Positions 16,949 through 34,162 of a stretch of 64,000 nt of DNA are shown here, one piece after another. Position 1 is the stretch's first letter. Every line of letters starts with the position of its first letter. This stretch comes from Halobacterium sp. CBA1132 (GTDB lineage Archaea > Halobacteriota > Halobacteria > Halobacteriales > Halobacteriaceae). The position numbers and the translations under genes are program-made. The stretch lies in contig NZ_BCMZ01000001.1 of NCBI RefSeq assembly GCF_001485535.1, forward strand, positions 1,178,001 to 1,242,000, given 5' to 3'. The notes below the pieces were generated by a model. It worked only from the letters and a program-made list of their open reading frames with translations. It was not told where the DNA came from and did not search any database.

Positions 16949-17498
16949 CGCTTCTCGGGTAGTCGGCGTCCAAATCGAGGTCGAGTTCGTCGGCACCCTC
17001 CATCTCGGGGCGGAGGTTGATGCCGGCCTGCTCGTCCTCGGGCAACTCGACGTTGTGAATCTCGGGGTCCGGGATGTCCGGGTCCGGCGTGTCCTCGGGG
17101 TCGGTGGCGACGTGCTCGGGACCGTCGTACCACTCCGGCGCGCGCTCGCCGTCCGCGAACCACTCCCGGAACGCCTCCTGGAGCGCGTCCGTGCCGCGGT
17201 ACTGCTCGCCGCCGTCCTCGAGGAACCAGTAGTAGAAGTCGACCTCGTGTTCGGCGCACAAAAGCACTTCCGCGCGCGGTTCGCCGTAGACGGCGGCGGG
17301 CGTGTTGCGCGCCGTGTCGTCGTCGCCGTGGCGGAGATAGCAGGCGTCGCACGGGCGGTCCATCAACGACGTGAGCCGGCGCAGGCGCTGGCTGGCGTCG
17401 TCGGGCATCTCGTCGAAGTCACGGTAGTCGCCGTCTTCGTCGAAGACTTCGTCCTCGTCGAAGCGCCACCCCCGGAAGCCGATGCTCACCTTGCTCAT
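16941..17498 (-). CDS. Uncharacterised haloarchaeal protein with Cys/His motif
   Basis: A 185-residue acidic protein that I do not recognise by name. Residues 1-40 begin MSKVSIGFRGWRFDEDEVF. A possible metal site is formed by CDACYLRHG near residue 50 and LLCAEH near residue 80. The C-terminal third is Asp/Glu/Pro-rich (DPEDTPDPDIPDPEI) and probably disordered. It overlaps trmJ by 8 bp, so it is cotranslated with a tRNA methylase, which hints at an RNA-related role without proving one. Its start is divergent from folP. Confidence 0.75.
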   Translation of the reverse strand: MSKVSIGFRGWRFDEDEVFDEDGDYRDFDEMPDDASQRLRRLTSLMDRPCDACYLRHGDDDTARNTPAAVYGEPRAEVLLCAEHEVDFYYWFLEDGGEQYRGTDALQEAFREWFADGERAPEWYDGPEHVATDPEDTPDPDIPDPEIHNVELPEDEQAGINLRPEMEGADELDLDLDADYPRSDE

Positions 17499-17611
17499 TG
17501 GCGCCGAGTAGGCGGCCGACGTACAAAAGTCGCGTGAAGGCGCTCGCGCGGGAGGCGGCCGCGAACCCCGGAACCGATTCGCCTTTGGGGGACGCGACCC
17601 GCCTTCGAGGC

Positions 17612-18724
17612 ATGCAGACGGTCGACGCCGCCGGCCTCCCGATTGGAGACGACCACCCGCCCCGCATCATGGGCGTGTTGAACGTCTCGAAGGAATCGCC
17701 GTACGACCCCAGCGTCTTCGACGACCCGGACGACGCGGCCGCGTACGTCGACGAGGAACTCGTCGGCGAGGGCGCGGACATCGTCGACGTCGGCCTCGAA
17801 TCCGCGAACAAGAAGTTCGACGTGCTCTCCGCCGAGCAGGAACTGGAGCGCCTCGATACCGCCGTCGAGACCATCCAGCGCGTCGAGGGCGACGCCGTGT
17901 TCTCCATCGAGACGCGGTACGCGGCGGTCGCCGACGAGGCGCTCTCGCGGGGCTTCGACATGGTCAACGACATCTGCGGGTTCGCCGACCCCGAGATGCC
18001 CGCGGTCTGTGAGGCCCACGACGCGGCGGTCGTGAAGATGGCGAGTCCGCCGGACCTCGAACGACCCGGCGCAATCGAGGAAGTTGATGATATCTACGAC
18101 GCGCTCACGCTGAACGGTTTCACGGACAAGACCATCGTCGACCCCGCGTTCGGCGGGTGGAGCGAAGCCAAGACCATCGATGACGACCGGGAGACGTTCG
18201 ACCGCCTGCGGGAGTTCCGCGGGCACGGCTACCCGATTCTGGTCTCCATTAACCGGAAGAACTTCCTCCGAGAGGTCGCCGGCCGCTCCACCGAGGAGGC
18301 GCTGCCCGTGTCGCTGGCGGCGACGTCGATGGCCGTCGAGCGCGGCGCACACGTAATTCGAACCCATGACGTCGCGGAGACGCGAGACGCCGCGCTCGTC
18401 GGCGACGAGTTCCGCCGCGACCGCTACGACGCCGCTCGCGTCGAAGAACTGGACGTGACGACGGTCGCCGAGGCCGAACGCCACGTCGCGCGCTTCGACG
18501 GGGACTTCGATGCGGCCGACGACGCGGTGGCTCGCGCGTACGAAGTGCAGGGACTCGACGACGACGACCGGGCGACGCTCACCGACGCGGGCGTCGCTGT
18601 TACAGGCGGGGATCCGTCGTTCGTCGCCGGCCCGCTGAGCGTCCTCCGAGCGGCCGGCGAGCGCCTTGAATCCCGTGAGGGCGCGCTGGGGGAGCTCGCG
18701 GCAGCGTGGACGAGCCACGCGTAA
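17612..18724 (+). CDS. folP: Dihydropteroate synthase
   Basis: Condenses a pterin pyrophosphate with p-aminobenzoate or a related arylamine in folate/methanopterin synthesis. The 370-residue TIM-barrel protein has the first signature PRIMGVLNVSKESPYDPS and the second ADIVDVGLESANKKFDVLS, with MVNDICGFADPEM and HVIRTHDVAETRDA as the later pterin-pocket and anion-site blocks. About 100 extra C-terminal residues follow the barrel. The frame opens at 17498, but similarity begins at the ATG at 17612. mptE, which makes the pterin pyrophosphate substrate, lies just downstream, so the pair forms consecutive pathway steps. Confidence 0.9.
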   Translation: MQTVDAAGLPIGDDHPPRIMGVLNVSKESPYDPSVFDDPDDAAAYVDEELVGEGADIVDVGLESANKKFDVLSAEQELERLDTAVETIQRVEGDAVFSIETRYAAVADEALSRGFDMVNDICGFADPEMPAVCEAHDAAVVKMASPPDLERPGAIEEVDDIYDALTLNGFTDKTIVDPAFGGWSEAKTIDDDRETFDRLREFRGHGYPILVSINRKNFLREVAGRSTEEALPVSLAATSMAVERGAHVIRTHDVAETRDAALVGDEFRRDRYDAARVEELDVTTVAEAERHVARFDGDFDAADDAVARAYEVQGLDDDDRATLTDAGVAVTGGDPSFVAGPLSVLRAAGERLESREGALGELAAAWTSHA

Positions 18725-18750
18725 CGGGAAAGCTTATACCCGCGGCGCCA

Positions 18751-18824
18751 AAATCCCGGGTTGGAAGCCGGACCCCCGCTGGGTAGGGGTACTTCGCGGG
18801 GCGTCTCGGCTCGAACCAGGAATT
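18751..18824 (+). ncRNA. Candidate structured RNA between folP and mptE
   Basis: The segment folds into one long hairpin. The outer helix pairs AAT(52-54)/ATT(122-124), CC(56-57)/GG(119-120) and GGTT(59-62)/AACC(114-117), numbers being 18700 plus the value. AGCCG at 18766-18770 then pairs with CGGCT at 18807-18811, and CCCCGC at 18774-18779 with GCGGGG at 18796-18801 around a 16-nt loop. A TATA-like CTTATA at 18733-18738 would start transcription near 18758-18762, and a T-rich stretch follows at 18824-18836. It could be a small RNA, a folP terminator or an mptE 5' leader. The structure is seen; the function is not known. Confidence 0.5.
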
Positions 18825-18855
18825 CTTTCATTTATTCGACCACGTAGCCATAGCC

Positions 18856-19533
18856 ATGGAGTTCGCCGATTGGGCGCCGGTTTACGAGGACGTACTCGCC
18901 GATTTCGGGTTCGATAGGGCCGCTGACGAGCGAGCGCGGGACGCGCTCGCCGAGCGCGTCGAGCCGTTCGACCTGCCGCGGTTGGACTGCACCGGACAGC
19001 GGGTCGCAGTCGCGGGCGGCGCCGCGTCACTGGCCGACGAGACCACACTCGCGGCCGACGCGGATGTCGTGTTCGCGGCGTCGACGGCCGTGGACGTGCT
19101 TGCCGACGCGGGCGTCGACGTCGACCTGATGGTGACTGACCTCGACAAGAACCCCGGAACTGCGCGCCGACTCACCGAGGCCGGGACGCCCGTCGCGGCG
19201 CACGCTCACGGCGACAACGTCTCCGCCGTCCGCGAGCAGATACCGACGTTCGACCTCGCGCACGTCCTCGGGACGACGCAGGCCGAGCCAGTCGGTCCCG
19301 TGGTCAACTTCGGCGGGTTCACCGACGGCGACCGGGCGGCGTTCCTCGCAGACCACCTCGGCGCCGCCGAACTGTGCTTCCCCGGGTGGGACTTTGACGA
19401 CTCTTCAGTCGGCGACCAGAAGGCGCAGAAACTGGCGTGGGCCGAACGCCTCCTCCACTGGCTCGAACGCCGCCGCGGCGACCGCTTCGGCGTGCTCGAC
19501 GGCCGACGCGACAGTGTTGACGCGCTACCGTGA
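18856..19533 (+). CDS. mptE: 6-hydroxymethylpterin diphosphokinase MptE
   Basis: Transfers pyrophosphate from ATP to 6-hydroxymethyl-7,8-dihydropterin, giving the substrate of dihydropteroate synthase. The 225-residue protein matches the archaeal DUF115/MptE family: start MEFADWAPVYEDVLADFGFD, RVAVAGGAASLAD, VDLMVTDLDKNP (Asp-rich metal/ATP site), HAHGDN and VVNFGGFTDGDRA, ending with GWDFDD. It follows folP by 131 bp, with a separate TATA-like TTCATTTATT about 25 bp before the ATG. It converges on a lipoprotein gene and abuts it without spacing. Confidence 0.93.
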   Translation: MEFADWAPVYEDVLADFGFDRAADERARDALAERVEPFDLPRLDCTGQRVAVAGGAASLADETTLAADADVVFAASTAVDVLADAGVDVDLMVTDLDKNPGTARRLTEAGTPVAAHAHGDNVSAVREQIPTFDLAHVLGTTQAEPVGPVVNFGGFTDGDRAAFLADHLGAAELCFPGWDFDDSSVGDQKAQKLAWAERLLHWLERRRGDRFGVLDGRRDSVDALP

Positions 19534-34087: not shown

Positions 34088-34162
34088 GCTCCGTTGGTGT
34101 AGTCCGGCCAATCATCTTGCCCTCTCACGGCAAGGACTAGGGTTCAAATCCCTGACGGAGCA
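34088..34162 (+). tRNA. tRNA-Glu (anticodon CUC)
   Basis: A full cloverleaf of 75 nt. The acceptor stem GCTCCGT/ACGGAGC occupies 34088-34094 and 34155-34161, with discriminator A at 34162. The anticodon stem TTGCC/GGCAA encloses loop CTCTCAC, which reads anticodon CTC at its middle. The T arm has stem TAGGG/CCCTG around TTCAAAT. There is no encoded CCA. An AT-rich promoter element (CGTTATTTG) lies at 34051-34059. The gene marks the left edge of an accessory-looking region, as tRNA genes often do. Confidence 0.97.

Follow-up and report, generated by a model that had tools for sequence, protein, structure and literature searches.

A conserved hairpin RNA upstream of mptE in Halobacteriales is predicted to pair with S-layer mRNAs at their 5′ ends

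Between a folP-like ORF and mptE in Halobacterium sp. CBA1132 lies a 74-nucleotide segment, at positions 18751–18824 of the 64,000-nucleotide stretch analyzed here (the window). What is this element, and is it connected with the pterin pathway to which its neighbors were assigned? The first-pass annotation of the window left three answers side by side: a new small RNA, a riboswitch-like leader sensing a pterin, and an elaborate folP terminator. Judged from the genome comparisons described below, the element is best read as a member of a new conserved family of trans-acting small RNAs (sRNAs), encoded by a separate gene with its own predicted promoter. The hairpin RNA very probably regulates the surface coat, and its pterin-pathway setting looks like stable synteny rather than function.

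The hairpin and its predicted promoter

The 74-nucleotide segment was predicted to form one long end-to-end hairpin of −42.2 kcal/mol, versus −29.5 ± 3.0 kcal/mol for dinucleotide shuffles (z = −4.2; 1 of 200 shuffles was as good). This agrees with the end-to-end hairpin of the first-pass annotation, and the GC helix, the TATA-like box and the T-rich DNA were all found where it had placed them. Its remark that it had matched the segment to no known RNA family also held: in a search of Rfam 15, the hairpin matched no family even at E = 10, where the sole match was an unrelated chance match inside mptE.

The conserved hairpin (18762–18813, + strand) is composed of UGG, a 2-nt bulge, GCCGG..., a variable middle helix, the apical loop and ...CGGCUCG. 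The loop, GGGUAGGGGUAC (18781–18792, +), is near-invariant. The predicted promoter is the BRE/TATA-like sequence GGAAAGCTTATAC (18727–18739, +), with the TATA-like box CTTATA at 18733–18738, about 25 nt 5′ of the hairpin; AARCTTATRCC is kept before the hairpin in all families that possess the hairpin. The predicted transcript of the small RNA gene covers 18758–18835 (+). It would start about 25 nt past the TATA box and end within the T-rich stretch. This T-rich DNA, present as the first-pass annotation had described it, consists mostly of CATTTATT (18829–18836, +), some 23 nt upstream of the mptE start codon. It looks like the leaderless promoter of mptE and not merely a terminator: it probably serves both as the T-rich end of the RNA and as the TATA box of mptE.

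The downstream ORF (18856–19533, +) was named mptE, a 6-hydroxymethylpterin pyrophosphokinase-type gene, in the first-pass annotation, and relatives of it were found in 189 of the 195 genomes. It is the constant downstream neighbor of the hairpin and is outside the mechanism proposed here. HVO_2628 was considered as mptE and rejected, as it is something else according to PMC8305020. The folP-like ORF (17498–18724, +), which probably begins near an ATG at about 17613, is an upstream neighbor only.

Distribution and covariation of the hairpin

The DNA could be aligned in 24 of 40 relatives. Among about 100 genomes in which the sequence upstream of mptE was read, one unit recurs: the AARCTTATRCC promoter, about 25–30 nt, the hairpin, T-rich DNA and mptE. 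The hairpin consensus in the relatives is UGGAAGCCGGAAGGGC..CGGGUAGGGGUACUUG..GCCAUUCCGGCUCA. Since the spacing from the TATA box to the hairpin is nearly constant, the sRNA is predicted to start at the hairpin base. The first-pass annotation had proposed a comparison of related genomes for covariation, and the stem passed it. Among 46 diverse sequences, 89.7% of the cells pair, versus 30–46% when the partners are slid, and double changes occur in 15 of the 20 stem pairs, a number reached by none of 500 shuffles.

The covariance model detected the sRNA in 146 of the 195 sampled Halobacteriales genomes, with one strong copy in each. In a phylum sample of 197 genomes, all of the matches listed were in Halobacteriales. 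At all 17 strong loci newly fetched, mptE lies directly 3′ of the hairpin. Where folP directly abuts mptE, the sRNA is missing at that place, and at two loci (L014 and L015) the hairpin is kept with no folP upstream by tblastn. In the genus g23 (Halorussus), the hairpin ends only 13–15 nt before the mptE ATG (L049, L101, L102, L107–L110 and L112–L114). A promoter for mptE alone would not fit into this gap, and mptE of this genus may be co-transcribed with the sRNA, via the sRNA promoter or by read-through. An AGYGAC-type motif recurs just 5′ of the mptE start codon at many loci.

The apical loop is complementary to S-layer mRNA leaders

The 12-mer of the loop is enriched genome-wide, with 4–8 copies in many genomes of the family f17 versus 0–1 for the control (8 versus 1 in G148). 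It was also found in genomes without an mptE-adjacent copy. Thirty loci with the motif were read: five are of the mptE type, ten are sibling hairpins, seven are leader starts on the opposite strand, and eight are other sites, including coding sequence. A match inside leuS (L201, L207) was set aside as a coding chance.

The seven opposite-strand loci consist of the promoter CCACAAAGCATTTATAA, about 25 nt, GTACCCCTACCC, and an ORF about 110 nt further on. These ORFs carry a surface-glycoprotein signal peptide: they match TIGR04207 (surface glycoprotein signal peptide) over its cut-off, and they match NF041335 ("ArtA-dependent S-layer glycoprotein") as partial ORFs, below the full-length cut-off. 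A solved-structure search with the S-layer ORF gave no match. Short-ORF mRNAs that start with GUACCCCUACCCAUG were also considered as the target of the loop; this idea was dropped, since these short ORFs are not conserved and an S-layer gene lies about 110 nt beyond.

Elsewhere in the same genomes, the leaders of S-layer (surface glycoprotein) mRNAs begin with the reverse complement of the loop GGGUAGGGGUAC. When further leaders were collected with a DNA pattern of promoter plus motif, 20 of 20 lay 53–130 nt before surface-glycoprotein ORFs. The pattern of promoter plus complement was present in 102 of the 195 genomes, versus a handful of matches with reversed-pattern controls. A scan of named genomes with a loose pattern gave a few non-haloarchaeal matches among those listed, a number expected by chance. 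The predicted pairing site in the leader is GUACCCCUACCC, located at the predicted 5′ end of the mRNA or only a few bases from it, about 50–130 nt before the S-layer start codon. A second conserved element, approximately AGUACCG, is seen about 20 nt past the pairing site (L187, L193, L197, L198, L204, L205, L227, L236 and others).

Pairing in the genome of the window: S-layer genes are located at G000:C1:154032, G000:C1:156992 and G000:C3:63537 of this genome (G000). The leader sequence ACACCCCUACCCA is predicted to pair with UGGGUAGGGGU of the hairpin (18780–18790, +) in a duplex of 11 bp and −22.6 kcal/mol. The 5′ end of the leader is mostly unpaired when folded alone. The full-length cofold was −67.9 kcal/mol versus −65.4 kcal/mol for the separate folds, a gain of only 2.5 kcal/mol. 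Thus, the pairing would need loop opening or the help of a protein, or may proceed loop-first.

Co-evolution of the loop and the leader

The loop and the leader were compared within genomes (90 genomes, 37 genus-by-type combinations), and S-layer genes were also located by protein profile, independently of the loop motif. All nine core positions can pair (Watson-Crick or GU) in 89 of the 90 genomes. Over the 37 combinations, Watson-Crick pairs form at 325 of 333 core positions, and with GU included the number rises to 332. When the leaders were shuffled among the combinations, the permutation p was 3e-5; this shuffle ignores the tree, and the four changes fall in four genera.

Compensatory changes were observed in four lineages, two of which have an unchanged sister species within the genus. 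In g4, the loop GGUAGGAGU of G015, G167 and G172 is accompanied by the leader ACUCCUACC, and G021 of the same genus has the unchanged pair GGUAGGGGU and ACCCCUACC. In g33, G153 has the loop GGUAGGGGC with the leader GCCCCUACC, and its relatives in the genus, G063 and G084, still have the common form. The other changed pairs are GGAUAGGGG with CCCCUAUCC in G092 (g41) and GGCAGGGGC with GCCCCUGCC in G182 (g63). In a few genera, the mRNA alone has changed and GU pairs remain; G081 shows full pairing with one GU. One-sided changes left GU pairs in 11 of the 12 departing genomes, a count in which the leader pattern permits only GU-compatible changes at three positions and the profile-found leaders are without such bias. 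The first position of the pattern is free, yet it is always A or G.

The presence of the RNA and that of its site also go together. Among the genomes assessable through a profile-found S-layer leader, the complement was found in 25 of 27 with the RNA and in 0 of 5 without it (Fisher p = 1e-4, table tallied by hand). Two groups without the sRNA, G028, G055, G072, G079 and G086 (f6 g12) and G129, G149 and G194 (f4 g40), also lack an S-layer leader of the usual kind or, in some genomes, any surface-glycoprotein signal-peptide match. Therefore, a joint loss of the sRNA and the leader in these groups is suggested. Exceptions were seen in two genomes. In G157, which has a variant loop, no matching S-layer leader was found, and of the ten CCCCTATCC sites in that genome not one lies before a surface glycoprotein; G013 has the sRNA, and the site is missing at its one profile-found S-layer gene. 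Taken as a whole, the sequence comparison strongly supports pairing of the loop with the leader through co-evolution.

Sibling hairpins with the same loop

The ten sibling hairpins (L189, L191, L195, L196, L203, L208, L211–L213 and L215) have the same loop and their own promoters, and are located elsewhere in the genomes. Their promoters are often of the CACAARR..ATTTACC kind, as at S-layer genes (by eye), and TTCTTTCGNCGCC is often found 3′ of them. The genome of the window has one at G000:C1:242360 (L191), and the Halorussus and Haladaptatus relatives have several per genome. They also occur in genomes from which the mptE copy has been lost. Weak covariance-model matches away from mptE (L168, L169 and L170) are different hairpins in which only the loop is common.

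Proposed function and alternative explanations

We propose, with a probability of roughly 0.85, that 18758–18835 is the gene of a trans-acting sRNA whose loop pairs with the 5′ end of the S-layer mRNA and thereby exerts post-transcriptional control. The AARCTTATRCC box at a fixed distance before the hairpin predicts a separate gene, and the RNA finds its complement, with compensatory changes across lineages, in an mRNA from another locus. Transcription from its own promoter would yield the sRNA as one long hairpin with the G-rich apical loop UGGGUAGGGGUAC exposed, and the loop would pair with its complement in the leader. This pairing would control the very abundant S-layer mRNAs after transcription. 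The site lies at the very 5′ end of the mRNA, a long way from the start codon, so the effect would most likely be on 5′-end stability or leader folding, not on the start codon by direct blocking. Protection of the mRNA is slightly favored over destabilization or repression. We infer that the cell makes both RNAs in the predicted form, that the two pair there, and that the pairing has an effect. The sibling hairpins would act on the same site. More tentatively, and with some doubt on our part, their loops might cap the 5′ ends of S-layer mRNAs and protect them from 5′-end decay or steer the leader, in an order-wide, co-evolving system. The conservation of the loop could be partly due to a second role.

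The matched changes would also arise if the loop and the leader were a shared DNA operator of one regulator, oriented one way at the RNA locus and the other way at the S-layer promoters and drifting with that regulator. We consider this unlikely, because the motif belongs to the loop of an RNA hairpin that covaries and because the one-sided changes leave GU pairs, as is predicted for RNA. In addition, the offset from the promoter differs, being about +25 in the sRNA and about +1 in the S-layer genes.

As for the pterin-sensing leader of the first-pass annotation, a pterin or folate riboswitch ahead of mptE would fit the constant strand and position of the hairpin at the loci checked, as well as the Halorussus loci, where the gene has no room for its own promoter. 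However, at the loci checked, the one strong copy per genome lies only beside mptE and at no other pterin gene, mptE of the window has a probable TATA box past the hairpin, and the constant promoter spacing places the RNA start at the hairpin. No aptamer recurring in the leaders of several pathway genes and no known family in Rfam was found. The near-invariant loop is explained by its complementarity to the S-layer mRNA, and its covariation with the S-layer leaders is not predicted by a pterin sensor; a riboswitch is very improbable. We give hardly any credence to an elaborate folP terminator or to an RNA that guides the modification of rRNA. A GC-rich hairpin followed by T-rich DNA has the appearance of a terminator, but a conserved promoter lies between folP and the hairpin, the loop sequence is conserved, and the hairpin is kept at L014 and L015, where tblastn gave no folP upstream. 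A guide RNA is opposed by the Rfam search, which gave no guide family, and by the folds, which have neither C/D boxes nor a pseudouridylation pocket.

Relation to known small RNAs

MicA, RybB and MicF are bacterial sRNAs that control outer-membrane proteins. The trans-acting sRNA proposed here resembles them in that several RNAs would share one target and pair with the 5′ leader of the most abundant surface-protein mRNAs. It is unlike them in being archaeal and in directing its apical loop to the extreme 5′ end, about 50–130 nt from the start codon, so that it would not act by covering the ribosome site. It is also not known to depend on Hfq. The sRNA154 of Methanosarcina mazei is likewise archaeal, trans-acting and dependent on base pairing, and differs in genus, structure and targets. 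It is a nitrogen-starvation sRNA that stabilizes some mRNAs and inhibits others (PMC6104027).

In Haloferax volcanii, the conserved intergenic sRNAs H225.2R, hts10 and htsf_359 (PMC3956466, Table 5) and H3.2 (PMC10927574) are known; growth is broadly affected when H225.2R is deleted. They resemble the mptE-upstream sRNA in being intergenic and conserved in haloarchaea, and no target is given for them in PMC3956466 or PMC10927574. The mptE-upstream sRNA may be one of these four. Haloarchaeal sRNAs are described as very poorly conserved and as mostly lacking known targets: 22 of 27 studied are confined to H. volcanii (PMC3956466), and no function was predicted for intergenic ncRNAs (PMC10927574). 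The present sRNA is retained across a whole order, and its predicted target is read directly from co-evolution. As the sRNA is present in several Haloferax species, it provides a testable sRNA-mRNA pair in a tractable species.

The S-layer is usually the main surface protein of the cell. The S-layer gene was the most highly expressed gene in Haloquadratum (PMC5496347), and in vesicles no mRNA is more enriched than fragments of the S-layer mRNA (PMC10927574), an enrichment on which the sRNA may bear. Elsewhere in the window, an ordinary tRNA-Glu (CTC) gene was found at 34088–34162.
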